Below, piece by piece: positions 45,594 through 63,150 of a stretch of DNA of 64,000 nt (the stretch's first letter is position 1; each line of letters starts with the position of its first letter). The position numbers and the translations under genes were made by a program. This DNA is from Allocoleopsis franciscana PCC 7113 (GTDB lineage: Bacteria; Cyanobacteriota; Cyanobacteriia; Cyanobacteriales; Coleofasciculaceae). The DNA lies in the NCBI RefSeq assembly GCF_000317515.1, contig NC_019738.1, forward strand, positions 1,029,501-1,093,500. The letters run 5' to 3'. A model generated the notes under the pieces. The model did no database searches, had not been told where the DNA came from, and worked only from the letters and a program-made list of their open reading frames with translations.

Positions 45594-46334
45594 ATTCTTG
45601 GCGTTGAATAGCAGAGTTGGGGTTTTACAGGGCGTGAGCTTTTAGAGCCTCGGAATCCGCTACCCAGCCAAACTCCCAACCGAATGAATAATCTAGATCT
45701 CTAATCGTACTGTCAAATCCACAGTCCGCCGACTTCTGGCGGTAGAGTTAAGTTTTTTATTCTCCGTTTGCTGGAAAAGTTAAGATTCAAAGACCTCTAT
45801 ATCTGCCCCATTAGCTAAGGAGAAAAAATCGAAGAATCTGAAAGCCTTCAGTATAAACTTTGAAGGCTTGATTAACTCTCTATGTTAAGATAGTCGATTA
45901 CCTAATCAGGCTCTTCTATTTAAACTTGAGTCAGAACTTGGGGAACTAATGGTTGGGCTAGACAATCATAGATATTCTAAATTTTGATAATGAGCCTTCT
46001 GGCGCTGAGTTTATTAAGAAAATTAACGATTTCACCGTTTTTACTCATCCATGAGCGTGAGGGATCGGCTCAATCCTTGATCTAAAGTAGAAAAATAACT
46101 CCTATTTGACGATCTCCCGATTGCTCCTTTAGGGCAGTGTCATCGGCAATCGCGTGAGTGGAATTCAGAGTTATGGCGGAATGGTGGAGGGTTACTGATT
46201 TGTTTACGAAGAAGTCTAGAAAATCCCTGCAATGTCACCCGCAGCACTTACCCTCAGTCGCTAAAACGGCTGCCTCTGGTACTCACACGAGTCGGAGGCA
46301 CACTCCACGCTACACCCAGGCTTGGCAAACGCAC
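45594..46334. other. Spacer with a 9-bp inverted repeat
   Basis: AAGCCTTCA (45842-45850) and TGAAGGCTT (45861-45869) pair perfectly around a 10-base loop, about 250 bp upstream of the ATPase start. The open frame continues upstream of the DUF2062 start to a GTG at 46158, but that part (Arg/His/Thr-rich) shows no conservation. Nothing else is recognised. Confidence 0.45.
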
Positions 46335-46880
46335 ATGGTCAAAAGCAATCGCAAGCCGAGAGGCTCTAAGCCAAGTTGGCGGCGACGTTTACAATATTTT
46401 TATTGGCGTTTAGCCCGTTTGCGCGGACAACCAGAATCCCTGGCACGGGGTTTAGCCTGTGGCGTATTTGCTGGATTATTTCCCTTTTTTGGTTCCCAAA
46501 CACTTCTGGCTGTTTTGCTAGCCTTTCTGTTTCGGGGCAATAAAATCCTAGCCTTAGTTGGGCCTTGGATTAGTAATCCGTTTACTTCTTTACCGATTTA
46601 TGCATTTAATTTCTACATCGGGAAATGGCTGATCAACGACCATACTTCAACGAATATAAATTGGCGTTCATGGGAGGATCTTAAGGATATTAAGGAGTTA
46701 GGGATAGAAATTATCTGGCCTTTGTTTGTCGGCTGCGTGGTTGTGGGGTTTGTCTGTGCCATTATTAGTTATTTCCTCGGTTTGCGGCTAATTCGCCGAG
46801 TTCGGACTTCCCACCATGCACGTCAACGACGCAAACGGATGAAATATTTACACCAACAATATCCCGATCAGTACTCATAG
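46335..46880 (+). CDS. DUF2062 membrane protein
   Basis: 181 residues from the ATG giving MVKSNRKPRG; a GTG at 46158 and an ATG at 46173 give longer forms. A basic head ('SWRRRLQYFYWRLARLRGQPESLARGLACGVFAGLFPFFGSQ' region) leads into two or three membrane helices with 'LVGPWISNPFTSLPIYAFNF', the core of DUF2062, and a basic C-terminus. The family is sometimes fused to glycosyltransferases; its role is unknown. It converges with the methyltransferase gene 8 bp downstream. Confidence 0.85.
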   Translation: MVKSNRKPRGSKPSWRRRLQYFYWRLARLRGQPESLARGLACGVFAGLFPFFGSQTLLAVLLAFLFRGNKILALVGPWISNPFTSLPIYAFNFYIGKWLINDHTSTNINWRSWEDLKDIKELGIEIIWPLFVGCVVVGFVCAIISYFLGLRLIRRVRTSHHARQRRKRMKYLHQQYPDQYS

Positions 46881-46888
46881 ATGATCAA

Positions 46889-48409
46889 TCAACTCTTATG
46901 ACGATTTCGGGCAGACATGAGGAGTTTAACTCGATAAGGGTCAGCATCTTTACGCCAATAGACACGATGTCCCTTAATTTCAGCACAGTGTTCTTTCAAA
47001 CATTTTTGCCAACCTTTGCGCGTACCAATCGTACTCGTTTCATCCAGTAATCCCCACTTTTCTTCCTGCTGAGTGAGTTTGGCAAACTTCTCATAATCGG
47101 GATAATCCGGCATCACAAAAGTTTCTTTGCGGTGCAGGATTGGCGGATTTTCTGAAGTGTCGTAATCGCGGTAAACCACTTGCAAATCCCGCAAGTCAAT
47201 CTGCATACTCGTGTGCAAAGTAGGATGGGGTTCTATATCAAAGTCGGGATAAAACAGATAAGAAATTTTCGGTACATTAAAGTGGAACTTAACGAGAGTC
47301 GCACCATCCATGCGACCAATCGTGCGACTGGCGCACCCTTCGTAAACTCGCAACAGGGGATTTAGGGCTTCCAGTGCGGAAACGTGAACGTAAAGAGCGT
47401 TAGGTAACAGTTTACCGATCGCACTTCGTTTGCAGCAATTCGCCATCAGGCGCAAGTCTCCTACACTCACTAACATTAAGTCAGCCGCAGCACAGGCTTG
47501 CTTGTAGTTGCCAAAGAGTCCTTTAATATCGTTTTGTAAGACACTTTCCAGGTTGCCAAATTTGGGGCGATGGCTAAACTGCGTTAGCGCCAGGTAAACC
47601 AGGATGTCTTGGCGGCGTTTTTCGGAAATGGCATCCCATTCGTTTTGGTCGGTGGCTTGTAAGATAACTTGAAAGGCACGGCGCAGGGTGCCAAATTCAG
47701 CCAGAATATCGGCAACGCTGGCGAGTTCGGTGCTAGTGGGGAGGCGTCCACGTTCCGTGACGAAGCCCATTAAGGGGGCGAGGAGTTCTTGGTAGTCCTC
47801 AAATCGCTTAATGTTGGCGCGAATTCTGGGAGTCGTGGTGCGGGAACGAAAACGCGATGCGCGAAAGCTTTCGGCTTGGGCTTCATCCCGGAAGACGAAG
47901 TAAATTCCCAAGGCGACAGGAATGGCATCGACGTTGAGTACTTGGTCAATATAGACTTTGAGTTCTTCTTGTTCGTAATATTTCTGAAACGTATTGCGGC
48001 GGGTGACAATGCCATCCCCATAGGCAATTTGACCGGATGCGCGGTCATCAATTAAGACTTGGGCGGCAACAATCAGAACTTTTTGGGTTAATTCCCATGC
48101 TTTGAGCAGGGCTTCCCGGCGTTCGGCGGGGTCTTCGATTACATTGATCACGTAGCCGAGATTAACGATATCAGCGGGGATGAGGGGATTGTCCGGCTGG
48201 TAATAGGGGTCCCAACCCGCACTGGTATAGCCTTGGTTCTGCGTGCGATCAATATCGCCACCGTGACCGCAGCCGTAGTCAAAAAAGGGGGTATCTTTGG
48301 TTAAGATGGCACTTTCTATTGCCAATCGCACGGGTTTGGAGAGGTCAATCCGGGCGATCGCCGCTCTGTGACGCTCAATTTCAGGGGCTTCTGGGATTGG
48401 AGCAACCAT
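46889..48409 (-). CDS. DNA phosphorothioation-associated putative methyltransferase
   Basis: 506 residues from the ATG giving MVAPIPEAPEIERHRAAIAR (six codons after the first in-frame start). A Rossmann methyltransferase motif 'FFDYGCGHGGDIDRTQ' with 'NLGYVINVIEDPAERREAL' identifies the family seen beside dnd phosphorothioation genes; the C-terminal half includes 'FHFNVPKISYLFYPDFD'. It lies 102 bp after dndE on the same strand. Its substrate is not established; the role in DNA modification or host self-marking is inferred from association. Confidence 0.85.
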   Translation of the reverse strand: MVAPIPEAPEIERHRAAIARIDLSKPVRLAIESAILTKDTPFFDYGCGHGGDIDRTQNQGYTSAGWDPYYQPDNPLIPADIVNLGYVINVIEDPAERREALLKAWELTQKVLIVAAQVLIDDRASGQIAYGDGIVTRRNTFQKYYEQEELKVYIDQVLNVDAIPVALGIYFVFRDEAQAESFRASRFRSRTTTPRIRANIKRFEDYQELLAPLMGFVTERGRLPTSTELASVADILAEFGTLRRAFQVILQATDQNEWDAISEKRRQDILVYLALTQFSHRPKFGNLESVLQNDIKGLFGNYKQACAAADLMLVSVGDLRLMANCCKRSAIGKLLPNALYVHVSALEALNPLLRVYEGCASRTIGRMDGATLVKFHFNVPKISYLFYPDFDIEPHPTLHTSMQIDLRDLQVVYRDYDTSENPPILHRKETFVMPDYPDYEKFAKLTQQEEKWGLLDETSTIGTRKGWQKCLKEHCAEIKGHRVYWRKDADPYRVKLLMSARNRHKS

Positions 48410-48511
48410 AACACCAAGCAAAAGCATTGCAGTTACTATACCCCGTCAAGAGAATTCTAGGCTAGACGAATCATTTAAGCCGATGCTCTGGTAAATAACG
48501 GTAATTTGATC

Positions 48512-48904
48512 TTAGTTTTGAGACGGCAAGGCAACAGCAATTAAGTCTTCAATTTTCTTAATATTAGGGTCACCCGCTAAGTAACCAATACCCCGATGCA
48601 AGTGAAGGCGAAATTGAGTAGCCAGAGTTTCTTTGTCCACAGGAAAGCCGTCGTTATGACAGCGCTGTTTGAGGGCAATGATGAGGATATCGGACATTTC
48701 TCCGCCGAAGACTTTCCAGGTTAGTTCGACGTTGCTGTTAGCGGGGATTGGGACTGGAGACGGGATAGTGGGTTCGGCAAGAGAACGACAGAATGCCCAA
48801 CGGCACAAGATGTTCCATTGGTCGATTTTGGTGTTGCGTCTTAGCTTGAGAAGTTGGTCTTTGGCGGATTGGGAGAGTGTAATGCGATCGATTGGGGGTT
48901 CCAT
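48512..48904 (-). CDS. dndE: DNA sulfur modification protein DndE
   Basis: 130 residues. 'RITLSQSAKDQLLKLRRNTKIDQWNILCRWAFCRSLAEP', 'SNVELTWKVFGGE' and 'FRLHLHRGIGYLAGDP' are the DndE hallmarks, spread over the whole length. DndE binds nicked DNA and works with DndBCD to replace a phosphate oxygen by sulfur in DNA. Here no dndB, dndC or dndD is found next to it; upstream is non-coding and downstream is the associated methyltransferase. A split dnd locus, or a leftover of one. Confidence 0.88.
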   Translation of the reverse strand: MEPPIDRITLSQSAKDQLLKLRRNTKIDQWNILCRWAFCRSLAEPTIPSPVPIPANSNVELTWKVFGGEMSDILIIALKQRCHNDGFPVDKETLATQFRLHLHRGIGYLAGDPNIKKIEDLIAVALPSQN

Positions 48905-49329: not shown

Positions 49330-50631
49330 TTAACGTGTGGAAGATTGTGCTCTGGGGTTTTGTTTGGCGGCAATCTTCTGCTGAAGCACTTCCAGACCTT
49401 TAGCATATTGAGGATCGTCTGGGGTGCCGATTTTCGTCCGATCCTGCTGCAACGTCTTACGCTGTGCATCCGATAGTTCTACCACAACATCTGGGGCAAT
49501 TCCCAACTTGTTAATATCCCGTCCACTGGGGGTGAGATACTTGGCGATGGTCACTGCCAGACCCGATCCATCTTCCAATCCTCGTACTGACTGAACCAAC
49601 CCTTTTCCAAACGTCTGAGTTCCGATCAGAGTCGCTCGCTTATCATCTTGTAAAGCCCCAGACAGAATCTCACTGGCACTGGCTGAACCTCCATCTACCA
49701 GCACCACTAGGGGTTTATCGGTCAGAGCACGACTGTTGGCGACTTGACGATCCGTTTCTCCCTGCCGATCCACCGTCGAGACAATTCCCCCTTGGTCGAT
49801 CCACATCCGGGCAATTTCAACACTGGCATTGAGTAAGCCACCAGGATTAGAACGTACATCGAGAATATAGCCCGTCACCTGCTGTTTTTCTAACTCTTTG
49901 ATCGCAGTACGCATTTCCTGCGCTGCATTGGCGCTAAATTGAGTCAGACGAATATACCCAACCTTGCCATTGGGCGAGTTCTTAGACTCGTACCGTACTG
50001 GATGAATTTCAATTTTTGCCCGTGTGAGCTGATAATCGATTTGCTTGTTCCCTCGCTGAACAGTTAGTTTGACTGAAGTTCCGGGTTCACCCCGAATCAG
50101 CTTGACGGCATCATTGACATCCATCCCCTCGGTACTCTTGCCGTCAATCTTGAGGATCACATCCTTTGCCAGAACCCCAGCCTTAAACGCAGGTGTATCC
50201 TCAATGGGGGAAATCACCATCAGTTTTTTCGTTTCCTCATCCTGAGCTAGCTGAATTCCAACCCCGGTGAGTTCTCCAGACGTATCAATCTGCATGTTCT
50301 TGAACTCTTGCGGGTCCATGAACCGAGTGTAAGGGTCCTCCAGCTTCTTCAGCATTTCCCGGATGGCTTTATAAGCCTCTTCCTGGTTCGTGTAATTGCG
50401 GTTTAAATATTCGTTGCGAACGGATCGCCAGTCCTGTTGATTGAACGTGGCATCTACATATTGCCGATCAATAATTTGCCAAACCTCATCCACTAACTCC
50501 TTAGGGCTTTGGCGAAAAACCTCGCTTAAAACAGCTTGGCTTTTAGACAAAAGACCGACAGTTGTCACCGCAACAGTTGTTATTACTAATGCTGTCGCAC
50601 CAAGAACGAGGCCACGTTTTGTAATTACCAT
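49330..50631 (-). CDS. Carboxyl-terminal processing peptidase (S41 family)
   Basis: 433 residues. N-terminal hydrophobic helix (signal peptide or anchor), helical head ('SPKELVDEVWQIIDRQYVD'), PDZ domain ('GVGIQLAQDEETKKLMVISPIEDTPAFKAGV'), and a catalytic core with 'YILDVRSNPGGLLNASVEIA', 'VVLVDGGSASASEILSGAL' (nucleophilic Ser) and 'TFGKGLVQS' (general-base Lys). Cyanobacterial Ctp proteases trim the C-terminus of exported proteins; CtpA matures D1 of photosystem II. Which paralogue this is cannot be told; the sequence resembles CtpB/CtpC forms. Confidence 0.92.
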   Translation of the reverse strand: MVITKRGLVLGATALVITTVAVTTVGLLSKSQAVLSEVFRQSPKELVDEVWQIIDRQYVDATFNQQDWRSVRNEYLNRNYTNQEEAYKAIREMLKKLEDPYTRFMDPQEFKNMQIDTSGELTGVGIQLAQDEETKKLMVISPIEDTPAFKAGVLAKDVILKIDGKSTEGMDVNDAVKLIRGEPGTSVKLTVQRGNKQIDYQLTRAKIEIHPVRYESKNSPNGKVGYIRLTQFSANAAQEMRTAIKELEKQQVTGYILDVRSNPGGLLNASVEIARMWIDQGGIVSTVDRQGETDRQVANSRALTDKPLVVLVDGGSASASEILSGALQDDKRATLIGTQTFGKGLVQSVRGLEDGSGLAVTIAKYLTPSGRDINKLGIAPDVVVELSDAQRKTLQQDRTKIGTPDDPQYAKGLEVLQQKIAAKQNPRAQSSTR

Positions 50632-50803
50632 AATCCTTTCACAAGCTGGAGGAAAACTACTGCAAAGGAATTACGCTCACTCTAACACGCCATGCCAGAA
50701 AGCGCCTAAGTCTATATATTTATGCAAGCCTGTGGCTTCTAGTCCGGACAATAAGCCTTGCTCAACGATGAGTGGATGCGAGTGAAAGTAATTTTTATAA
50801 CCA

Positions 50804-53800
50804 TTATCCTTTAGGAGTCTGATCTTGTGGTCGCTCAAGAGACTGACAAAGTTCCCGATCCCGGTGTCTCACTTTAGGATTGTTTTGCAGATAGTACCGC
50901 AGCCAGTTACAGCCTTGATCCAACAAATGCTCTAAATTGAAATTCCACACCATCACAGTATTGTCCCGACTGGCAGAAGCGAGTGCTTTACCATCATGAC
51001 TCCAACTGACGCTCGTCACCCGATCTTGTTGTCCTTCTAGGGTTTTAATCAAGGTATCATCCAGCCGCCACAGTTGTATCCGGTTATCCCAACTGGTTGT
51101 TGCCAGAATTTGACCGGTGGGACTAAAGCGAACGTGAGCGACGCTATCGCTATGCCCCTTCAAGGTTCTGATCATTTCTCCCTGGCGACTCCAGAGTTTG
51201 ACCGTGTTGTCATAACTTGCCGAGGCGATCATCTGGGAGTCCGGTGAAAAACTTACATCTAAAACCCAATTACTATGCCCCCGCAAGGTTTTCAATAATC
51301 TACCATCCGCTGTCCACAGCTTTACGGTCTTGTCATCACCAGCAGAGGCTAAGAGTTCGCCATCAGGGCTAAAGGCAACCGCATTAACGCGGAAATCAGA
51401 ACGATTCTCTCCGTTTGCCGTCTTGCTGTTGAGCGCATCAGGGTGTAAAGAATCGCGATGTTCACTCAATGTCTTAATCAAAACACCCTGACGAGTCCAG
51501 AGTTTCACGGTTCCATCCTGACCTGTAGAAGCCAGTCGCTTGCCGTCAGGACTAAAGCTGACACTCAACACCCAGCCCTGATGCCCGGTGATCGTCTTGA
51601 GCAAAAGACCCCCGCGAGTCCAAAGTTTCATCGTTCCATCCCGACTCGCTGAGGCCAGAAGTTGACCCTCCGGACTAAAACTGATGCTGTCAATGCGCTC
51701 CTTATGCCCCTTTAAGGTGTGGAGTAACTTACCGTTACGAGTCCAGAGTTGCACCGTCTTGTCATCACCCGCCGTGGCTATCAGTTGACTATCCGGTGAA
51801 AACGAAACCTCTCTCACTTGCTTTTGAACTGGCAAAATTAGGCGAGACGGGTTATTGAGTCCCCAAAGTCTAATGGTTTTGTCATTGCTGGCGGAGGCTA
51901 AGAGTGGAACTGAGTTGAAGGTGGAAGATTGTAACGTTGTCTTGGAACTTTCACCGGGCAACCCGCTAACAGGAGTGGGACTGAAACTGACAGAAGTAAC
52001 AATATCGCTGTGTCCTGTAAACGTTTGCCGGAGAGTCCCATTCCGATTCCACAGCCTAACCGTATTGTCAGCACTCGCTGATGCCAGGAACTGACCATCG
52101 GCACTAAACGCCACAGCCATCACCCATCCTTGATGCTTGGAGAAAGTTTTGATCAGCTTTCCGTTGCGGTTCCACAGCTTTACCGTTTTATCATCGCTAG
52201 CTGACGCCAGGAACTGACCATCGGGACTGAACACCACACCGTTTACCTGGCGATTATGCCCTTTGAGGGTTTGCAGTAACTTACCTTGTCTACTCCATAG
52301 CTCAATTGTCCCATCCTGACGGGCTGACGCGACCCTCTCACCATCGGGACTAAAGCTGACCCATCTCACGACACCGTGATCACTGTATAACGTCTGAATT
52401 AACTTGCCCTTAAGCGTCCAAAATCGAATGGTACCATCCCCACCCGCAGAAGCGATGAGCTGACCATCGGGAGAAAAGCTCACACTATACACCGGACCAA
52501 CATGACCCCGAAGCAGGCTCACGAGGCTGCCATTGCGACGCCAGAGCCTAATTTTGCCATCCTTGCTACTCGATGCCATCATCTGACTATCGGGACTAAA
52601 TGAGACGCTCGTCACACTATCGTTGTGTCTGTTGAGAGTAGCAACTAACGTTCCATCGGGACGCCACAGTTTCACGGTGTGGTCTTGACTGGCAGAGGCT
52701 AAAAGTTGACCATCGGGAGAAAAGCTGACGTTCCAAACGATATCACTATGCCCCTCCAACCGATTACGCTCCGCAGTGGAGTAAACCGCCTGGGATAGAG
52801 CGGTGACAACCTGTAAATGGGTATCAGGTTCTACGGATCGCTCCGCCGTCTCTAAATCCTTGAGGCGTCTTGCGGCTCTCAATCCTTCTAGTAGAGCATC
52901 AAACTTTTTATTAGAAACAAACAGGGCTTCTGAAGAAGCACTAATTGCACTCAACTGGGCATTAATCGAAAGGTTGGTAGCCAGTCGTCTTTGAACCTCA
53001 GCTCGCCACCCCAAACCACCTGTAGTGATGGCTAAAAGTGCCATGGTCGCACCTATGATACTTGCTCGCAAGCGCTGCTGATGTGCCTGAACCAGTGCCT
53101 GTTCACTTCTTTCTAGCTTTGCCACTACATTTAAATGTGCAAGCTGATTATATTTTTGACGAATCGGTTCGACTAGATAATCATGAACTAGCTGATATCG
53201 GTCTTGTTGCTCCTCCGGCACCCGGAATACCAAACCAGAACCGACCAGAATCTTTAAGATTAAATCAAGTTTTTTGGGTATTAGTTGTGCTTGTGACCCG
53301 TCACAACGGGTTAAGCATTGCTCTGTAAAACACTTGGGTGTAATACCTGTGCCTACAGCCAACTCAGGGATAGTTTTCAACGGACGGGTACCGCGTTCAT
53401 CGGTTAAAGAGAACAGGACTTGCCAAACCGTATCTTCGTTCTCTTGTCCACAGTCATTGATTACACCCAACAGCGATCGCTCCACCAGGGTGGCTTTTGG
53501 ATCAGCTCCTAGAGCGTAATATTGCTCTAGCGTCGTAATTTTTTCCGTTTGTAGCTGTTGCCCTACAACTTGTAATTCAATCAGGCGCACGACTCCTGTA
53601 CTGCCGGCTAAATCTCGCACCAGGGCTGCAATCAGAGATTCTTCTAACTGAAATTGAGAGACGTCGGCTAACGTGCTAATCACGTTTCTTGCATCATCAG
53701 GCGAAAGATCTCCTAAGTGGTAGCGAAGCTGTCGATCCAGAATATTGTTGTTAATGGTACTGAGATTACAATAACGCTCACACTCCAACAAATAGTGCAA

Positions 53801-56197
53801 ATAATCTTCTCGCAGTGACAAAATAACTTTTAAGAAAGGCAGATTCAAACACTGCGCCAAAAACTCATAAAACTCACGCCGTTGTTCTAGGTTGGTACAG
53901 AAGAAAAATTCTTCAAATTGATCAAAAATTAGAACCGTTAATAATTTGTGTTCCGCAGCAACACGCAACTGTTTCAGGATTTGTTGAAGCCTTGGGCTAG
54001 AAATGGAAGGTTGGAAACTGGGAATGGGGGATTGATTTAAGGTTTGCGATTGCGCTTCGCGTAATCGCGCTACGGAGAGAGCCAAGGCGAGCGTTTGTGA
54101 TCGCAACAAGTTTTCCGCTAACGTAGCGGCTTCTTCGGCACTTACAGGCGGTGTTTCTTCCCCGCCAAGAGTAGCCGGCTGGACTTGAGCTGGGTTAGGT
54201 GTGGAACACTGAGCCGACTCGTCATAGACAGATTGCCTGATTTTCAGTTCCAACTCAGGTGAGAATTCTTCTTTTGAACTATTCAACCCTTTAACTTGCC
54301 GACTGGCCAATGCGGCTTCTAGACGCCGTTCTAGTTCCCCAAGCCAATCTCTGTAAGCTTTTTGCACAATCGGCATCGCTTCTCTGGCTCCAATAATCCG
54401 GGATGCCAAAGCTGGGACTAAACCCGCATTAATCAAGGAACTTTTACCAACACCAGAAGAGCCGTGAATGATGGTCAGTTTATGGTCATTGCGGCTCAAA
54501 CGTTCGATTAGGCGATTGACATCCGATTGACGCCCTGCTGCTGCAATTTCTAGGGATGATATGCCTCGACCTTGGCGGGTAAACGGTTGTAAGGGAGCCG
54601 CACCGAGGAAAGTGGAAAATCCATACTGTTGCTCAATCAAGCGTTGCCGCTGTTTGAGTTCAAACGCTCTCCAATATTGCCGTTGCTCTAGATAGAGCGA
54701 TCGCAATTCTTCCAAGATGTCAATATAAAGCTGTGGCTGCTTCTTGAGAGCCGTTGGTGACCAATACTCGGCTGTGATCGCCTGTTCTAGATTCGTGATC
54801 GCCGGGGTCAATTCACCCAACTGTCGCTGCGCTTTGGCTGAGTATAACAAATACCCTCCTCGATGCAGGGGTTGAGGCGACCCAGACTGAGCGAGGAGGT
54901 CAAAAGCACCCCAGGCTAAATACTTGGCGTTCTCCCATTCAAACTGAGCCAACGCCACAACCGCCAAAAAACCATAAGCTTGAGCCAATTGTACTGGGCT
55001 GTCTTGGGTTTGAGGGTCTTCCAAAGCGTGTAAGGCCAGAGCCTGTAATTCAGTCCAGCTTTCTAGCTGTTTTAATACCTGACCGAGATGAAGGGTTAAC
55101 TGAGCCACTAAATCTTGTCGTCTGGCAAGTGTAAATACCTCAATCGCCTTACTAAATGACTCTTTGGCTTGTTCCCACTGGATACGACTGGTGAGCGGTT
55201 GCAACTCCGCTTGACGGCAATGACACAACCCGATGTGATGGAAGAGTAGCCCAACACGCTCTAACGATTTTGGATTGTGCCGTCCTCGGACTAGACTTCT
55301 TTGTGCGGCGTTAACGTCCTGGGGGTGGGTTTGGGATGTTGGATGGGAAAGGTTCTCCTGAGCTCCTGTGTAGGCTTTCTCCCCCTGTATAAACGCGAAC
55401 ATTGAAGCATTGTTTCCCTGCTCCCACACCGCCCCACTCTGATCTTCTGGCAGCCAAACGTCCAAACTCTTTTGGTACTGCACAAGCGCTACATCGAGCT
55501 GATCCCGTGTTAAGGCATCCCGCCCTAAAATAAACTGCCAAGTGGCCCATTGTTCAGGTTCTAAATAAACGCCACGAGTCGTTAAGTCTCGTAACACCGA
55601 CTCAAGTTCCTGGCGTTGGCGACAACCCGGTGCCAAATTGAGAGCGTCGTTGGACAGAAATTCACTCAAATCGCTCCCCAAAAGCCGGGTAAAGAGTTCA
55701 TCCGTTGTTTGCTGCCATAAAGCGAGTAACTCGGTGGTGGTCAGTTCAAACTTGATTGAGGTGGCTGCCCAACTCTTAAAATCGGGGGCAAACCGCGTCA
55801 GCTTCTGCAAAACCTCATCGGTGATCCACAACACGAGAGGACGGGTTAAATTTTTCCGAAATTCTTCTCGAATTTGGTTCGTCGAAATCAGCACCTGGTC
55901 AATGGCTGTTACTGACTCTAGGCCAAACACAATCAACGCCGATGCCTGCGTGCCCGAAAGGATAGAAACAATAGGTCTATATAAGCTTTTAATGGCTTTT
56001 CGCAAAACTAGCTCACTCAGCGTGACTCCCGTGAGTGCTTGCAATCGCTGCCGCATTTGCTCTTTGCAAACTTCATAGTTACAGCGAACCAAAATCAGTG
56101 CAAAGTGCCCTTCAGAGAGAGTAATTGCCCTGGATAAAGTTGACAGTGAACGCTCATTCAAGACCGCTACTTCTTGTATTCGATTTGGCTCTCTCAT
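50804..56197 (-). CDS. Large STAND-type ATPase with C-terminal WD40 repeats
   Basis: 1797 residues. The N-terminal ~210 residues form an unassigned alpha/beta region ('HFALILVRCNYEVC', 'LVLWITDEVLQKL') followed by TPR-like helices (~215-540). The nSTAND-type NTPase has Walker A 'GSSGVGKSSL' (~575) and Walker B 'LIFDQFEEFFF' (~755). A membrane-helix-like stretch at ~1085 ('IIGATMALLAITTGGLGW') precedes fourteen WD40 repeats (VKLWRPDG to VMVWNFN), enough for two seven-bladed propellers. Repeat 6-7 has an insert. Probably a signalling or recognition switch; STAND proteins of this type include anti-phage sensors, but no effector domain is recognised. Confidence 0.88.
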   Translation of the reverse strand: MREPNRIQEVAVLNERSLSTLSRAITLSEGHFALILVRCNYEVCKEQMRQRLQALTGVTLSELVLRKAIKSLYRPIVSILSGTQASALIVFGLESVTAIDQVLISTNQIREEFRKNLTRPLVLWITDEVLQKLTRFAPDFKSWAATSIKFELTTTELLALWQQTTDELFTRLLGSDLSEFLSNDALNLAPGCRQRQELESVLRDLTTRGVYLEPEQWATWQFILGRDALTRDQLDVALVQYQKSLDVWLPEDQSGAVWEQGNNASMFAFIQGEKAYTGAQENLSHPTSQTHPQDVNAAQRSLVRGRHNPKSLERVGLLFHHIGLCHCRQAELQPLTSRIQWEQAKESFSKAIEVFTLARRQDLVAQLTLHLGQVLKQLESWTELQALALHALEDPQTQDSPVQLAQAYGFLAVVALAQFEWENAKYLAWGAFDLLAQSGSPQPLHRGGYLLYSAKAQRQLGELTPAITNLEQAITAEYWSPTALKKQPQLYIDILEELRSLYLEQRQYWRAFELKQRQRLIEQQYGFSTFLGAAPLQPFTRQGRGISSLEIAAAGRQSDVNRLIERLSRNDHKLTIIHGSSGVGKSSLINAGLVPALASRIIGAREAMPIVQKAYRDWLGELERRLEAALASRQVKGLNSSKEEFSPELELKIRQSVYDESAQCSTPNPAQVQPATLGGEETPPVSAEEAATLAENLLRSQTLALALSVARLREAQSQTLNQSPIPSFQPSISSPRLQQILKQLRVAAEHKLLTVLIFDQFEEFFFCTNLEQRREFYEFLAQCLNLPFLKVILSLREDYLHYLLECERYCNLSTINNNILDRQLRYHLGDLSPDDARNVISTLADVSQFQLEESLIAALVRDLAGSTGVVRLIELQVVGQQLQTEKITTLEQYYALGADPKATLVERSLLGVINDCGQENEDTVWQVLFSLTDERGTRPLKTIPELAVGTGITPKCFTEQCLTRCDGSQAQLIPKKLDLILKILVGSGLVFRVPEEQQDRYQLVHDYLVEPIRQKYNQLAHLNVVAKLERSEQALVQAHQQRLRASIIGATMALLAITTGGLGWRAEVQRRLATNLSINAQLSAISASSEALFVSNKKFDALLEGLRAARRLKDLETAERSVEPDTHLQVVTALSQAVYSTAERNRLEGHSDIVWNVSFSPDGQLLASASQDHTVKLWRPDGTLVATLNRHNDSVTSVSFSPDSQMMASSSKDGKIRLWRRNGSLVSLLRGHVGPVYSVSFSPDGQLIASAGGDGTIRFWTLKGKLIQTLYSDHGVVRWVSFSPDGERVASARQDGTIELWSRQGKLLQTLKGHNRQVNGVVFSPDGQFLASASDDKTVKLWNRNGKLIKTFSKHQGWVMAVAFSADGQFLASASADNTVRLWNRNGTLRQTFTGHSDIVTSVSFSPTPVSGLPGESSKTTLQSSTFNSVPLLASASNDKTIRLWGLNNPSRLILPVQKQVREVSFSPDSQLIATAGDDKTVQLWTRNGKLLHTLKGHKERIDSISFSPEGQLLASASRDGTMKLWTRGGLLLKTITGHQGWVLSVSFSPDGKRLASTGQDGTVKLWTRQGVLIKTLSEHRDSLHPDALNSKTANGENRSDFRVNAVAFSPDGELLASAGDDKTVKLWTADGRLLKTLRGHSNWVLDVSFSPDSQMIASASYDNTVKLWSRQGEMIRTLKGHSDSVAHVRFSPTGQILATTSWDNRIQLWRLDDTLIKTLEGQQDRVTSVSWSHDGKALASASRDNTVMVWNFNLEHLLDQGCNWLRYYLQNNPKVRHRDRELCQSLERPQDQTPKG

Positions 56198-56955
56198 TCA
56201 ATTCATGTTGTGACTGTTACGGGTGCACAATTGCCACTAACTGATTGCTATTCCTTTAATTAGAGTCAAGTTTAAAAATTTTTTAATTGATTAGGACTTA
56301 AGCATTACCTTGACATCTTGGGTGGAAGCCAAGGAACCACACAGGGATTGCCCCTACAAGTGGGATTTGTGCATAGTTCTGTTGATGTGAAAGCCAGTGG
56401 AGTGATATTTCGGGGCTATCTGCGGCTGTGGGGATGGGTGCCATGCCGTCCGTTAAGTTATCTACGGACTCATTGCAAATAGTGGTGCTTGTACAGAAGC
56501 AGAACTTTTTACTCCTCCACTACCCCATAACTGATGATGGGGCAGTGAATCACAAGGGACTTGGATGGATGGCTCACTGTATCGAGAGCTATGGCTGGTG
56601 AGCGTTGCCAAACCTCTTTATGGTTTCCGCTCCAATCACCCCAATCACGCTCCGCAGAGCGCCTAAAAATTTGTTTCATTGTATTTAACCACACAGTAGT
56701 AGATGACCGCTTAGGATGGAAAGCGCACATTTTTTTTAAGGATTGTACGCTTGTGCACACTTCATAGTATCAGTGATTTCCGGGGGATGGTATGTAGCAT
56801 TCAACCTTAAAAAAATCCGTAATTTTGCTAGGGATGATGCGCTTGACAATTCTGGCACAGATCAGGGACTAGTAAACTTCAAAACGCTGATAGGGATGTG
56901 ATAAAATCTTGATTCTCCCTGTGATACCGATCGCTGACTGAATCGTTGAATAACG
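56198..56955. other. 758-bp spacer
   Basis: Upstream of the STAND gene and the small cysteine protein. It includes a dispersed-repeat-like stretch near 56288-56380 (attaggactta..., ...gtgcatag). Two overlapping short frames on opposite strands at 56509-56767 have no coding features. No structured element stands out. Confidence 0.4.
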
Positions 56956-57138
56956 ATGAATTTTCCTACTCTTAAGGTTCCCCCCATTAGAGAGCCTCGT
57001 CGTTGTGTTCTATGTGCTGGGTTACGGCAAGCAGAATATCTTGTGAATCATAAAATTTTCCGGGCTACAGAAGAAGCCGAAGTCATTTTCTCCTGTATTC
57101 ACAAAACCCGGTATAAATTTAGCGTAATTCGGCACTAG
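56956..57138 (+). CDS. Small cysteine-containing hypothetical protein
   Basis: 60 residues with 'RRCVLCAGL' (CxxC) and a third Cys followed by His ('FSCIHKTRYKF'), a possible single zinc site. No ribosome site is seen before the ATG. The stop overlaps the end of the convergent ATPase gene by four bases. Real gene status is uncertain; the CxxC...CxH pattern is the main support. Confidence 0.4.
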   Translation: MNFPTLKVPPIREPRRCVLCAGLRQAEYLVNHKIFRATEEAEVIFSCIHKTRYKFSVIRH

Positions 57139-58469
57139 ACCCCGTTAGGCAAGGTAACTAAAGATTGAAATCTTTCTGTTTCTGCCAAAGCGGGGTTAAT
57201 GCCAAACCAGCGCCCCATCTCATCCCGATACTCATAGACAAATCCACTCCGCAACAGTACTTGATATTCTCGTTCGCCCTTGACAATTTGTTGTCGAACC
57301 ACCTGAGACAGCAAATCCCATTCCTCCTCATCCACGGCGAGAGCTAAGTCATCGCGGTAACCTTTGATCACACTTTCTAAGCACTCACGGGTGAAGGGTG
57401 GGTCTTCCTGTTGTAGGCAGTTATAGAGTAGCCCTAATAAGTTACGGACATGACCCCCACTCACACGGCACATCCGGTCGAGAGTGTCGGGACTGTCAAA
57501 CACCTCTAAGATCAAATTCAGCCTCGCTTGAGGCTCCACATGAGGAAAGGCTCGTGCCATCACCATCTGTCGCATCAGCGCCATCCCTTTGGGGAAGTCA
57601 CAACCATCCCGTGACTGAATCGGTACCATCGGCAGGACTTTAGGAGCCACACCAGCACCTAAGCGATTTTTCAGCGTTTCATACTCATTACAGAACATCA
57701 ACGCTAAGGGCAGGGTGTAGACCAGATGGCACTTTAAGTCTCGTAACTGAGACCCACGGTCAATGAACAGATATTCCGGTTGCGATCGCCCAGAGGCTAC
57801 GGGTCGGGGATCAACCCGATCCAGATTATCAATAATCACCACCAACCCTTTTTTGCCGCGATTCTTGAGTTCCTCAGTTCCCCGCAACAAAATTTCATCA
57901 TTGATGGCGCTTAAAATGCTTTTAGTTCGAGGTTCTAGGTGCTGTCTGAGCTGGTCACGCAGTTCGGGGCTATCTTTGGTTTTAGCGGTAATTTTGGCAA
58001 TTCCGACCGAGAGTTCAGCTTCCGTTGACAGCTCGATAGGGGTCTGCAAAAAATCTTTGAGGTCGTTGAAGAGTTTGGCAAAAGACCGAGGTTTGAGGTG
58101 GATGCCAACCGCCTCCAGGCTTTCGCTCACGGAGCGGGCGATACTGAGCAAAATATCGCTGATATCCACATCCGCCATGTCCAGGTCTTTACTGGACTCA
58201 AAATAAACCACATGAAATTGTTGCGCCTCCAACTGGGCTTTGAGTCGAAACAGCTCAGTAGACTTTCCGCAGCCGATATGGCCTGTAAACAACTGACAGG
58301 TGGGATCATCCGGAGAAAGGCGAGTGATGGTTCGTCCTAAGGCTTCCACAATTCTGCCGCCACGGACAGAAGAAAAATCGATATAGTATTGACGATCCTC
58401 CGGATTCCCCACAACAAGAGTTTTAGCTGGGTTACAAGCTCTGAAAAATGTTGGTAAATGCAGCTTCAT
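57135..58469 (-). CDS. P-loop AAA-type ATPase
   Basis: 444 residues. Walker A 'GHIGCGKST' (63-71), Walker B 'LVVIIDNLDRVDP' (~210), and a sensor-like 'LVYTLPLALMF'. A winged-helix-like C-terminal part ('VKGEREYQVLLRSGFVYEYRDEMGRWFGINPAL') follows. The layout resembles cyanobacterial STAND/ORC-type ATPases of unknown function. It lies upstream of the large WD40 STAND gene on the same strand, but with a ~940-bp gap holding a small opposite gene, so a common operon is doubtful. Confidence 0.82.
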   Translation of the reverse strand: MKLHLPTFFRACNPAKTLVVGNPEDRQYYIDFSSVRGGRIVEALGRTITRLSPDDPTCQLFTGHIGCGKSTELFRLKAQLEAQQFHVVYFESSKDLDMADVDISDILLSIARSVSESLEAVGIHLKPRSFAKLFNDLKDFLQTPIELSTEAELSVGIAKITAKTKDSPELRDQLRQHLEPRTKSILSAINDEILLRGTEELKNRGKKGLVVIIDNLDRVDPRPVASGRSQPEYLFIDRGSQLRDLKCHLVYTLPLALMFCNEYETLKNRLGAGVAPKVLPMVPIQSRDGCDFPKGMALMRQMVMARAFPHVEPQARLNLILEVFDSPDTLDRMCRVSGGHVRNLLGLLYNCLQQEDPPFTRECLESVIKGYRDDLALAVDEEEWDLLSQVVRQQIVKGEREYQVLLRSGFVYEYRDEMGRWFGINPALAETERFQSLVTLPNGV

Positions 58470-59002
58470 TTCTTCAAGTAGGACTCACGCACCCTTTCAA
58501 GAATTTCAGGGATTTTGGCGTCTGTCGATCCCCCTGATGCCCCTCACCCCCCCTAGGCTCCGGTACGGGAGGATTTACTCGGTTGCGTTGGAGTCACTCA
58601 GGGGAAGGTAGAGGGAATTTGGGGATCACTCCTGTAATGTCTATTTTTCCTTTAGAATGTTGTCTTTCCTGATTAGCAATCGAGAGCGGCGGTAAGACGA
58701 TAGGAGTCCTCATTGAGCATGTCCGGTCGTTAGGGCAGTCATCACTCAAGCCTTATGTCAGAATTACAGGCGTTGAAGGACTTTACTGAAGTTCAAGAGA
58801 GCCTTAATTTATATAGATTCAGGAGGGGCACTCGCCCTTTTTACTTACAGCGTCGGGAAAAGGAATGGTTAAATGGGAAAAGTATCTTGGGCAAATTGGA
58901 TCGATGAGTACAGTTGACGGGGTGCTACCCAGTGAATCTTCACTCTCCCTTGTCTTTGAGCAACATCTTCAGAAATTACACATTAGATTGAGCGGTATGT
59001 AG
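58470..59002. other. 533-bp spacer upstream of ftsQ
   Basis: No gene is seen. A GC-rich C-run patch lies at 58530-58565, and a terminator-like hairpin at 58824-58842. The ftsQ promoter must lie downstream of it unless read-through occurs. Confidence 0.5.
58824..58842 (+). terminator. Short intrinsic-terminator-like hairpin before ftsQ
   Basis: AGGGGC-ACTC-GCCCTT with a T-run to 58842 gives six pairs (one wobble) and five T. It is 160 bp before ftsQ on the same strand, so it may end a short upstream transcript or attenuate the ftsQ leader. Confidence 0.4.
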
Positions 59003-59845
59003 ATGGAAAGCATCGCATCAGTCTCTCAGGCACAATTGACCACCCGGCGCAAGCAGCTGCGACGCGAACGTCGAATTAAATCGGTTCAAGCCCTTTGGCG
59101 CTCAATGCTTGTGGGTGGTATGGCCACCGGCTTAGTGTGGGCGATTACGTTACCCGATTGGGTCATTTCAACTTCGGAACAAATTGTCGTCGAGGGCAAT
59201 CACTTACTTTCTGCCAAATCGATTCGTTCCTTGCTGCCCTTGTCTTATCCGGAATCCATTCTGCGTGTCGAACCCCAAGCGATCGCCAAATCTCTAGAGT
59301 CTCAAGCTCCGATTGCCGAAGCTACCGTAACACGCCAATTATTGCCGCCCGGATTGACAATCAAAGTCAAAGAGCGTAAACCCGTGGCTATTGCTCAATC
59401 CGCTGCTTCCTCCCCGGCTCAAACGGCTAACTCTACCGTAAAATCGGGCTTCTTGGATGCCCAAGGCGTTTTGATGCCTGAAAACAGTTACACCAGGCTG
59501 GCGCAAAAACTGGAGTTGCCCTCACTCAAAGTGATTGGATCGTCGGATCAATATATCTCTCACTGGTCGGAAGTTTACCAAGCGGTAAGCCACTCCCCCG
59601 TGAAAGTTTTCGAGATCGATTGGCGAAATCCAACCAATTTAATCCTGAAAACCGAGTTAGGAAATGTTCATCTAGGCCCCTACAGTTCTCGATTGACAGA
59701 GCAACTGACCGTTCTGGATCGGATGAGAGAATTGCCGTCTCATATCCAGGCTGGGAACATCGCCTATATTAACCTGCAAAACCCAGAGTTTCCGGCAATT
59801 CAAATGGAAAAGGGAAATGATACGGTTTCACCCACCACTCATTAA
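59003..59845 (+). CDS. ftsQ: Cell division protein FtsQ/DivIB
   Basis: 280 residues. A basic cytoplasmic head (RRKQLRRERR), one membrane helix (~30-50), and a POTRA domain opening 'EQIVVEGNHLLSAKSIRSLLPL' and closing 'LPPGLTIKVKERKPVA', then the FtsQ beta domain ('FLDAQGVLMPE', 'KVFEIDWRNPTNLILKTELGNVHLGPY'). FtsQ links the septal ring to wall synthesis. It lies directly upstream of ftsZ (212 bp), the standard cyanobacterial arrangement. A GCTCTAGC/GCTGGAGC stem lies 40 bp after its stop. Confidence 0.93.
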   Translation: MESIASVSQAQLTTRRKQLRRERRIKSVQALWRSMLVGGMATGLVWAITLPDWVISTSEQIVVEGNHLLSAKSIRSLLPLSYPESILRVEPQAIAKSLESQAPIAEATVTRQLLPPGLTIKVKERKPVAIAQSAASSPAQTANSTVKSGFLDAQGVLMPENSYTRLAQKLELPSLKVIGSSDQYISHWSEVYQAVSHSPVKVFEIDWRNPTNLILKTELGNVHLGPYSSRLTEQLTVLDRMRELPSHIQAGNIAYINLQNPEFPAIQMEKGNDTVSPTTH

Positions 59846-60057
59846 GATTAAATAAATAATGAAGAGTGGGATCAAGAGGGCTTTGCTCTAGCTGCTTTTT
59901 AGGGCTGGAGCGACCCTTGATTATTAGCCTCTTCAAGACGGTCAACACCCTTACACCAAGGCTTCGTTGGTTTTTGAATCGACTTACCCTATAGTTGACT
60001 CAGATTGCTACCTATAACTGATACTGATAAAGTTGTTTATCACCCTGACCTATTGCA

Positions 60058-61329
60058 ATGACGCTAAATAATAAACTAGAGCTTGACAATCAAAGCTCTC
60101 ACATCACAGGACAAGCTGAACTATCAATTGGTGTGGACAATACACATCCCTATGGAAATTCTGGGTTACAGTTTGCTCAGATCTCTGAGTCCACCAAGGG
60201 AATACCCCGGGAAGAAACCAGGAGTGACAATATCGTGCCAGGTAGCGTTGCCAAAATTAAAGTGATTGGCGTAGGCGGGGGTGGGGGCAATGCAGTCAAC
60301 CGCATGATCGCCAGTGAGGTGAGTGGGGTCGAATTTTGGTCGATTAATACAGATTCTCAAGCTCTAGCCCAAAACGCGGCAGCTAGGCGCTTACAAATGG
60401 GACAAAAACTGACGCGAGGACTGGGTGCTGGCGGAAATCCAGCGATTGGTCAAAAGGCGGCGGAAGAATCCCGTGAGGAAATTGCCCATGCGATTGAAAA
60501 CGCGGATCTGGTTTTCATTACCGCTGGTATGGGGGGCGGCACGGGTACAGGAGCGGCACCAATTGTGGCTGAAGTCGCTAAAGAAATGGGTGCTCTTACC
60601 GTTGGCGTCGTTACCCGTCCTTTTACCTTTGAAGGACGCCGTCGCACCACTCAAGCTGAGGAAGGAATTGCCGCCTTGCAAAGTCGGGTGGATACCCTAA
60701 TCGTGATTCCCAACAATAAGCTGCTGTCGGTGATTAATGAGCAGACTCCTGTTCAAGAAGCCTTTCGTGTAGCGGATGATATCCTCCGGCAGGGGGTTCA
60801 AGGTATTTCTGATATCATCACGATTCCCGGTCTGGTTAATGTAGATTTTGCTGATGTCCGCGCTGTGATGGCGGATGCGGGTTCTGCGTTAATGGGGATT
60901 GGCATCGGTTCTGGCAAGTCGAGAGCTCGCGAAGCCGCTTCTCAAGCGATTTCCTCTCCCTTGCTTGAAGCTTCTATTGATGGTGCCAGAGGCGTTGTGT
61001 TAAACATCACCGGTGGCAGCGACCTCACCCTCCACGAAGTGAATGCAGCGGCAGAAACTGTTTATGAGGTGGTCGATCCCAATGCCAATATTATTTTTGG
61101 AGCGGTGATTGATGACAAAATGCAGGGTGAGGTGAGAATTACCGTCATTGCCACCGGATTTAGCGGAGAAACCCAATCGGCACCCAGCTCAATGAAGGAA
61201 ACTCCCTATCCACGGCGACCGATTGCCCCCACCCCCAATCCCCCCATGCCTCCCGTTGAACCGAGGGGTAGACAACAGGAATTAGATATTCCTGAGTTTC
61301 TGCAAAGGCGTCGTTTTCCTAAACCTTAG
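60058..61329 (+). CDS. ftsZ: Cell division GTPase FtsZ
   Basis: 423 residues. It forms the cytokinetic ring. A ~60-residue N-terminal extension, normal in filamentous cyanobacteria, precedes '[17 protein letters not shown]', the tubulin signature '[10 protein letters not shown]' (~160-168), 'NNKLLSV', and a T7-type '[11 protein letters not shown]'. A Pro-rich linker leads to the tail '[16 protein letters not shown]', the conserved C-terminal peptide that binds partners. The ATG is the first in the frame. A GAGGAG-N8-CTCCTC hairpin (61355-61374) lies 25 bp after the stop and may help end the transcript. Confidence 0.98.
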
Positions 61330-61613
61330 GCGTGGTGAACCTTGAACAGAAACAGAGGAGAATACCAGCTCCTCAACACTCAAAATGGATTAGAAAATGG
61401 TGTTGTTTCAGGTACGTCATCTACTTTTAACGTTGAATCGGGCTTTGAAACTTAAGATCGAGGTATTATCACCCGAAGCGTTTCACTAGGGTAGAAAATT
61501 CCTCTGTGGTGCATTCGCCCAGATTCGTATTTTTACAAGCTCTGATACCTGGATGTGTTCTATAGCTATGAGCTGGAATAAGAAATAGCTAAAATCGGTC
61601 TTTGTTCTTTAAT

Positions 61614-62432
61614 ATGACCTGTCAAACTCAATTAAATGTACCCGTTGCCCTAACAATAGCTGGTTCCGATAGCGGCGGCGGCGCTGGGATTCAAGCAGAT
61701 TTAAAAACATTCGCCTTTCACTGCGTACACGGCACCAGTGCCCTGACTTGCGTAACGGCACAAAACACTCAGGGTGTGTCGCGGGTTGATGCTCTGCCTC
61801 CAGAGGCCGTGGTTGCCCAAATCGAGGCGGTAGTCAGCGATATTGGCGTGCAGGCGACCAAAACGGGGATGTTACTCAATCAGGAGATTATTCAAGCTGT
61901 GGCAACCCAGGTCAAAATCCTAGGTTTGGATAACCTGGTGGTAGACCCGGTGATGGTATCCCGGACGGGTGCCCAATTGATTGATGATTCGGCGGTACAG
62001 TGTTTACGGGATGTCCTGATGCCCCTAGCCGCTATTGTCACGCCGAACCGCTACGAAGCCCAAATATTGAGTGGTTTAGCCATTCATACCCTAGAGGATA
62101 TGCAAGCAGCAGCCCAATGCATTCATCAACTGGGGGTGACGGCTGTTCTGGTCAAAGGGGGAGGAATGACAGGCAGCCTGCGCGGGGTTGATGTGTGGTT
62201 TGATGGGCAGGAGCTATCCACCCTGAAAACAGAACAAGTGGAAACCCACCATACCCATGGGACGGGTTGTACGCTCAGTAGTGCGATCACTGCCAATCTA
62301 GCACAGGGGAAAGACCTTGGATCTGCGGTGCGATGCGCTAAGGATTATGTCACAACGGCATTAAACTATGCCTTAGACATGGGTCAAGGAACAGGGCCAG
62401 TGGGACATTTTTTTCCCTTGTTGCGCTCCTAG
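61614..62432 (+). CDS. thiD: Hydroxymethylpyrimidine/phosphomethylpyrimidine kinase
   Basis: 272 residues from the ATG; a TTG four codons earlier is in frame. ThiD phosphorylates HMP and then HMP-P in thiamine synthesis. Ribokinase-fold motifs 'IAGSDSGGGAGIQADLKTF' and the anion-hole 'THGTGCTLSSAITANLAQG' are intact, with 'VDPVMVSRTGAQLI' between. No other thi gene and no TPP riboswitch are seen near it; the 280-bp upstream spacer lacks a recognisable THI box. Confidence 0.95.
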   Translation: MTCQTQLNVPVALTIAGSDSGGGAGIQADLKTFAFHCVHGTSALTCVTAQNTQGVSRVDALPPEAVVAQIEAVVSDIGVQATKTGMLLNQEIIQAVATQVKILGLDNLVVDPVMVSRTGAQLIDDSAVQCLRDVLMPLAAIVTPNRYEAQILSGLAIHTLEDMQAAAQCIHQLGVTAVLVKGGGMTGSLRGVDVWFDGQELSTLKTEQVETHHTHGTGCTLSSAITANLAQGKDLGSAVRCAKDYVTTALNYALDMGQGTGPVGHFFPLLRS

Positions 62433-62580
62433 TCCTCAAAATTGAAAGGGGTGCACAAGTAAGGTTGAATAGATGGTCAATTTCTGAAAAAATTGCTGAG
62501 CTTGGACTCATAATTCCACTATTGTGACCTTACGCAAGTTTGCGATACCCATAACCTGTCATTTTTAGATTAATCCTTCT

Positions 62581-63150
62581 ATGCAAACCCCCCCAACTGA
62601 CCGTTACAGCCAAAAAAACTCCAATCCATACAGCCCATCTGTCCCTATTTCAGTCTATCGAGAACTGGCGGCTGAGTTGCAAGACGCACGGGAGACGGTA
62701 GAATCCCTAAAATCTCAAAATCAGCAGTTAGTCCAGCAAAATCAACAACTGCGCCAACAAGTTGAAAAAGTGGTTCAGTCCGCTCAGCATCTCCAACAGA
62801 TTGTTGCGTCCTTTGGGTCTGTGAATGAGGTAGAGATTCCTCGACCTCAGCCCCAAAGGCCACCCGAACCCCGTCCCGTTGCACCGCCTCCGCCGCCTCC
62901 TAGGGCAACCACTATCCAAGAGGAATTTGCACCGCCTCCTCCAGCTCCTGAACCGATTCCCTCCCCTTACCGAGAGACGGTGGTGATTGAACAAGAGGAG
63001 CGTCCTCGCCGCACTTCACCTTCAGAGGGGTTCTCTGATGTCAGTGGTTGGATGTTACTGGTCGCCATTTTACTGATTGTACTAACAGCCTTTGGCACAG
63101 GCTTTTTAATCGTGCGACCGCTGTTAAATAACAACAATAAAAATCGTTAA
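62581..63150 (+). CDS. Coiled-coil, Pro-rich, single-helix membrane protein
   Basis: 189 residues. A coiled coil at ~25-80 (Gln/Leu-rich 'SLKSQNQQLVQQNQQLRQQVEKVV'), a Pro-rich linker (~87-130), and one membrane helix near the C-terminus ('GWMLLVAILLIVLTAFGTGFLIV'), ending in an Asn/Lys tail. Type II or tail-anchored in layout. Function unknown; similar proteins occur in cyanobacteria. Confidence 0.7.
   Translation: MQTPPTDRYSQKNSNPYSPSVPISVYRELAAELQDARETVESLKSQNQQLVQQNQQLRQQVEKVVQSAQHLQQIVASFGSVNEVEIPRPQPQRPPEPRPVAPPPPPPRATTIQEEFAPPPPAPEPIPSPYRETVVIEQEERPRRTSPSEGFSDVSGWMLLVAILLIVLTAFGTGFLIVRPLLNNNNKNR

Follow-up and report, generated by a model that had tools for sequence, protein, structure and literature searches.

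On the minus strand of the window (the whole 64-kb stretch of DNA that was analysed), dndE at 48512-48904 was followed, after 84 bp, by a gene for a TIGR04096 methyltransferase at 46889-48427. DndE is the DNA-binding subunit of the phosphorothioate writer. The 130-aa protein encoded here (C1:1078012-1078404 in contig coordinates) scored 135.5 bits against TIGR03184, which has a cut-off of 71.85, and matched the Pfam DndE family (PF08870) at 2.8e-43. Its top sequence match among the solved structures in the PDB was the solved DndE 7x4e, and it was 66-85% identical to its orthologues (alignment, n = 19). A search of the whole genome gave this one match, making the window copy the sole recognisable dndE. 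The 512-aa methyltransferase, which has the compact form described below, covered TIGR04096 from end to end (1-478 of 478) with 751.9 bits against a cut-off of 150; the family bears the name 'DNA phosphorothioation-associated putative methyltransferase' (dnd_rel_methyl). The initial annotation had named both genes and described them as a two-gene unit with dndE first, and the profile scores, shared strand and spacing confirmed both the naming and the layout. A DUF2062 gene at 46158-46880 on the plus strand (PF09835, 4.8e-45) converges on the methyltransferase gene with 8 bp between them. It adjoins the methyltransferase gene or dndE in three other loci as well (L088, L097 and L089) and is a marker of the ancestral gene order, outside the dnd system.

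To describe the methyltransferase, an AlphaFold2 model was combined with a fold search. Residues 15-183 formed a class I SAM methyltransferase fold, with a Z score of 13.0 to 5ufm and of 11-12 to UbiG, RsmC, METTL5 and others. The C-terminal domain, residues 205-512 (about 305 residues), was predicted with a pLDDT of 92 and a pTM of 0.82 when modelled alone by AlphaFold2. No solved counterpart of this domain was recovered by Foldseek (best E value 1.5) or VIA-align (best Z 2.9). The sequence search of the methyltransferase against solved structures gave chance matches only, and a profile of the C-terminal half gave none. On the predicted model, the structure searches thus put no name to the fold of the C-terminal half. 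The DNA amino-methyltransferase motif [DNS]PP[FYW] was absent, and the place after strand 4, located by model topology only, reads N89-L-G-Y92. We found no paper dedicated to TIGR04096, and one passing use of the name was all that came up.

Partner genes beyond the window edge

The assembly that contains the window (9 contigs, 7.97 Mb) was searched for the partners of dndE, and dndB, dndC and dndD were all found in the same contig and on the same strand, spanning 20-26 kb from it. The nearest, dndD (C1:1098515-1100500, L023:5015-7000, minus strand), begins 20.1 kb from dndE; its product scored 690 bits against TIGR03185 (cut-off 245.85) and has a Walker A motif, GGMNGGGKTT, in the translation. 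The product of dndC (C1:1100724-1102364, minus strand) scored 692.8 bits against TIGR03183 (cut-off 290.4) with the PP-loop SGGKDS in the translation, and that of dndB (C1:1103377-1104474, minus strand) scored 443.4 bits against TIGR03233 (cut-off 328). Between dndB and dndC, also on the minus strand, lies a gene for an SBD-HNH nuclease (C1:1102346-1103380, L023:8846-9880) with matches to PF13391 and 8h0l, and its frame overlaps dndC by 19 bases and dndB by 4 bases. Three strong homologues of cysteine desulfurases were found at 442.7, 377 and 349.9 bits, below the DndA cut-off of 480, as housekeeping IscS-type enzymes would score.

The initial annotation had reported that no dndBCD genes were near. 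This was correct inside the 64-kb window and incorrect for the contig, because the window ends at contig position 1093500, about 5 kb before dndD, and the seeming absence was an edge effect. The apparent anomaly was thereby removed, as partners missing from a 64-kb window are not missing from the genome. The genome search for dndB, dndC and dndD that had been proposed thus recovered the complete set, all over their cut-offs in one contig, which is the genetic part of what had been anticipated for a split locus and agrees with the suggestion that the pathway is dispersed in this genome.

PADLOC gave the DndD of this genome 1003.8 bits as PbeC, more than the 809 bits that it reached as DndD. A PbeC identity was considered and dropped in view of the 690 bits to TIGR03185 and the orthology to the DndD found beside DndC and DndE in relatives; some of the PADLOC PbeC models may have been built from cyanobacterial DndD.

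The gene order in relatives was then compared with that in the window. A full one-strand cluster, dndB-SBD-HNH-dndC-dndD-dndE-methyltransferase, was present in G106 (L072), G065 (L073) and a Microcoleus vaginatus assembly (L110), and a shorter version, SBD-HNH-dndC-dndD-dndE-methyltransferase, in G008 and G060. In a near relative (L097), whose methyltransferase is 87% identical to that of the window, the order is dndD, a 6-bp gap, dndE, methyltransferase and DUF2062. The window still has dndE, the methyltransferase gene and the DUF2062 gene together, and dndD no longer adjoins them. Because relatives carry a single cluster, with dndD only 6 bp from dndE in L097, the arrangement in the window appears to be a derived split.

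Genes identified between dndD and dndE encode a peptidase-like ORF, a WD40 NTPase, a KAP NTPase, an FtsQ-type protein, FtsZ, phosphomethylpyrimidine kinase, a two-component system, thioredoxin and others. In the part of this spacer that falls in the window (49330-63150), ORFs and Pfam matches gave ordinary chromosomal genes with no transposase among those identified, and the ordinary content of the spacer spoke against a mobile element having inserted there. In the congeneric genome G001, the halves are oppositely oriented with about 30 kb between them. Since the intervening genes are ordinary and the halves in G001 have opposite orientations, a rearrangement is the simplest reading of the break and is preferred over an insertion.

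As in the DndBCDE systems of E. coli B7A, Salmonella Cerro 87 and Streptomyces lividans, the four proteins scored over their cut-offs and their genes run in the order B-C-D-E on one strand. In contrast to those systems, the 20.1 kb between dndD and dndE is filled with ordinary genes, the SBD-HNH gene is placed between dndB and dndC, and the TIGR04096 methyltransferase gene follows dndE. No dndFGH were found either, as TIGR03236 and TIGR03238 gave no match in the genome in a search that had no positive control, the control genomes giving no signal as well.

Joint retention and scatter across relatives

The survey covered 147 genomes: the one that contains the window and those of relatives, most of which belong to its order. 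All four of dndC, dndD, dndE and the methyltransferase gene were present in 108 of them and none of the four in 14. Both dndD and dndE occurred in 118 genomes, at a distance of at most 6 kb in 56, farther apart on one contig in 22 and on different contigs in 40, the last class being partly due to fragmented assemblies. Among the 40 near-finished genomes, defined as having at most ten contigs, 33 had both genes, 7 had neither, and none had one alone (Fisher p 5e-8, with relatedness not corrected for). In 19 of these 33 genomes, from 8 families, the distance between dndD and dndE exceeded 6 kb. Thus, adjacency of dndD and dndE is no usable criterion in Cyanobacteriales, where dnd genes need not be neighbours. 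The two genes are kept together, yet over half of the near-finished genomes that carry them do not have them next to each other, which contradicts the published generalisation that DndD and DndE are invariably linked as a pair. An extreme case is G028, in which dndC, dndD, dndE and the methyltransferase gene are at 0.63, 3.03, 3.97 and 4.06 Mb of a single contig. A hidden second DndE next to DndD was ruled out in the ten split genomes that were checked, in which a sensitive profile found no second DndE-like frame beside dndD. Such scattered sets offer natural test cases for a DNA-modifying complex of several subunits that is encoded in pieces.

Split dnd sets as such are not new. The available text of PMC8546630 describes them in toxic Microcoleus, with dnd parts on separate contigs and 40 kb or more from one another, and cites toxic Microcystis aeruginosa; varied dnd configurations across Cyanobacteria are described in that of PMC8569181. 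The sets in these reports are, like the one described here, complete but spread over distant places. The counts of joint retention, the linked methyltransferase and the SBD-HNH gene are given here and do not appear in the available passages of PMC8546630 and PMC8569181.

A tree of the methyltransferase with 107 rows splits the TIGR04096 family into a compact and a long form, on a branch with an SH-aLRT of 97%. The compact form, to which the window protein belongs, has ~500 residues; in 21 of the 28 decidable loci its gene lies downstream of dndE at a distance of no more than 6 kb. The long form has about 690-800 residues, its N-terminus repeats part of the C-terminal domain, and it was located within 6 kb downstream of dndE in 6 of 45 loci. 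One row of compact length groups with the long form in the tree; it comes from the edge of a contig. Seven genomes have a methyltransferase with none of dndC, dndD and dndE; six of them (G040, G054, G084, G094, G120 and G133) have the long form, and the assembly of the seventh, G009, is 89% complete. The linkage to dndE and the presence of the long form in dnd-free genomes thus suggest that the compact form is tied to the phosphorothioate set and the long form less so. The window protein does not differ from the family, and it is the family itself that consists of a compact, dndE-linked form and a long, mostly unlinked form. Three further loci (L075, L129 and L133) encode a methyltransferase of ~1000 residues with two tandem copies, downstream of dndE and on the same strand.

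In G119 (L084, G119:C2:2243000-2256000), dndC is reduced to a piece of about 91 residues, and dndD, dndE and the SBD-HNH gene are intact; this is a natural loss of dndC. G133 has only a fragment of dndE.

Explanations for the dndE-methyltransferase pair

We consider the pair to be the detached 3' part of a complete and conserved cyanobacterial dnd set that was split between dndD and dndE, with a probability of about 0.88, on account of the gene identities, their intactness, the shared strand, the order in relatives and the joint retention. The locus in the window is thus an ordinary case of a complete and conserved system in split form, and our confidence in the genes and in the split themselves is high. 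In the proposed course of events, an ancestral order dndB-SBD-HNH-dndC-dndD-dndE-methyltransferase would have been broken between dndD and dndE by a rearrangement in this lineage, leaving the two parts on one strand with 20 kb between them. The DndE encoded in the window would then act in trans and join DndD and DndC, and DndC-DndD-DndE would insert sulfur at chosen positions of the DNA backbone, with an IscS-type cysteine desulfurase as the probable source of the sulfur and DndB holding down the dosage. Deletion of dndE abolished phosphorothioate in E. coli and in Salmonella carrying the Salmonella cluster (PMC4182426). That the Dnd complex forms and that the DNA carries sulfur we infer from the gene content, and our confidence in active sulfur modification is moderate. 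Most likely, the methyltransferase serves this modification pathway as an accessory enzyme. Its putative substrate could tentatively be DNA or a factor (protein) bound at modified sites, a guess that we hold to be somewhat less than even, and confidence in its role is low.

The initial annotation had also considered that the locus has decayed. The separation from the partners and the decay visible in some relatives (G119 and G133) would fit such a remnant. However, the frames of dndE and the methyltransferase gene are intact, their profile matches are full-length, the partners are complete in the genome, and dN/dS against G001 was 0.11 for dndE and 0.12 for the methyltransferase gene, which argues that both are under purifying selection and leaves the probability of decay next to negligible. 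The partners gave values of 0.09-0.15 (dndB, dndC and dndD) and 0.27 (SBD-HNH gene) in the same comparison. It is also highly improbable that the dndE of the window serves, in place of DndD, a CxC-type (Pbe-like) ATPase system in the same genome. This second locus (C1:7352239-7356075, L215:7240-11076, plus strand) has a PbeA-like helicase and a CxC ABC ATPase side by side, with a small protein encoded between them. The helicase (L215:7240-8745) scored 540 bits as PbeA, over the helicase part only and without the N-terminal part, and 668.7 bits against TIGR04095; the ATPase (L215:9010-11076) scored 1128 bits as PbeC and has a CIC motif. Such a service is suggested by the report that CxC ATPases are universally linked to a DndE (PMC10853773), as L215 has no DndE-like frame recognisable by a DndD-type DndE profile, by which a very diverged clade-2 DndE could be missed. 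Against it, the DndE of the window is orthologous to those directly beside DndD in relatives, and its gene co-occurs with dndD.

A further possibility, raised earlier for this locus, is that dndE and the methyltransferase gene act as a unit whose function is separate from sulfur insertion; site-directed methylation guided by DndE would be one example. The close linkage of the compact methyltransferase to dndE in most decidable loci would agree with this, and so would the fact that the pair stays together in this lineage with dndD elsewhere, and the long-form methyltransferases in genomes that lack dndC, dndD and dndE. However, dndE was never kept without dndD in near-finished genomes, being present in the 33 with dndD and absent from the other 7, which spoke against the idea that dndE works apart from sulfur modification. 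The few candidates for dndE-only genomes were all fragmented assemblies and were rejected, and in G006, the one from which L097 apparently derives, the end of dndD sits at a contig edge. Moreover, six genomes (G007, G015, G018, G019, G034 and G061) keep dndC, dndD and dndE without a methyltransferase above the cut-off, and the methyltransferases retained in dnd-free genomes are of the other, longer subfamily. An independent unit is therefore very unlikely. For the methyltransferase family the idea keeps some plausibility, as the longer form survives in genomes without dnd genes.

Apart from this, dS between the window dndE (48512-48904) and its congeneric counterpart (L088:6292-6684) was 0.65, far above the 0.16 of the methyltransferase gene. 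From this gap, recombination at dndE is possible, and dndE and the methyltransferase gene may not have one shared history.

The SBD-HNH gene within the dnd cluster

The survey drew attention to two conserved companions of the dnd genes, the compact TIGR04096 methyltransferase and the SBD-HNH protein. The SBD-HNH gene beside dndC is the most interesting loose end, outside the finding on dndE and the methyltransferase. The N-terminus of its product matched the sulfur-binding domain 8h0l (SBDHga) at 6.1e-15 as a single sequence and at 7.6e-50 as a profile whose alignment included the 8h0l sequence itself. The C-terminus matched the TagI HNH domain at 1.1e-6 (profile) and PF13391 at 6.1e-10, and the HNH residues are kept. 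The gene was found in 38 of the 147 genomes. Thirty loci were examined, and in 22 of them its end is less than 90 bp from dndC, with both genes on one strand. With the SBD-HNH endonucleases (EcoWI, SBDHga and ScoMcrA relatives) the protein has in common the SBD-like N-terminus and the HNH C-terminus. In contrast to these, the protein described here stayed below the NF045808 cut-off (102.9 against 180 bits), has Y-Q in place of the sulfur-contact pair H-K, as placed by alignment and not by structure, and is encoded inside a dnd cluster. The pair, which is H-R/K in its conserved form, varies among the genomes: several relatives have H-K, many have Y-K or N-K, and the seven with Y-Q or N-Q include the window's genome. 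Since loss of the cationic residue in ScoMcrA (R117A/G) abolishes phosphorothioate binding (PMC6224610), sulfur binding by the SBD-HNH protein may be weak in the window's genome.

In the EcoWI study, less than 3.6% of such nuclease genes were near dnd genes, and it was argued that they should avoid dnd (PMC7461809). Rakesh and colleagues described HNH proteins linked to dnd that carry an SRA domain besides one of SBD type (PMC10853773). A speculative and rather doubtful extension would be that dnd in Cyanobacteriales is a housekeeping, dispersed DNA marking and not a mobile defence island, that it has its own SBD-HNH reader, which roughly one genome in four encodes immediately upstream of dndC, as well as a dedicated methyltransferase with a new architecture, and that the reader may cut unmarked DNA. 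If so, the SBD-HNH reader, with its contact lysine replaced, would be the restriction partner reported missing from Cyanobacteria.

Two DGQHR proteins were also encoded in this genome. The gene for one of 552 residues (L023:11399-13057, plus strand) is next to and divergent from dndB, and its orthologues lie beside dndC or dndB in several relatives. The other, a second DndB-like protein (L216:5069-6175, minus strand), is on contig C9 of 26 kb and scored 125 bits, below the cut-off.
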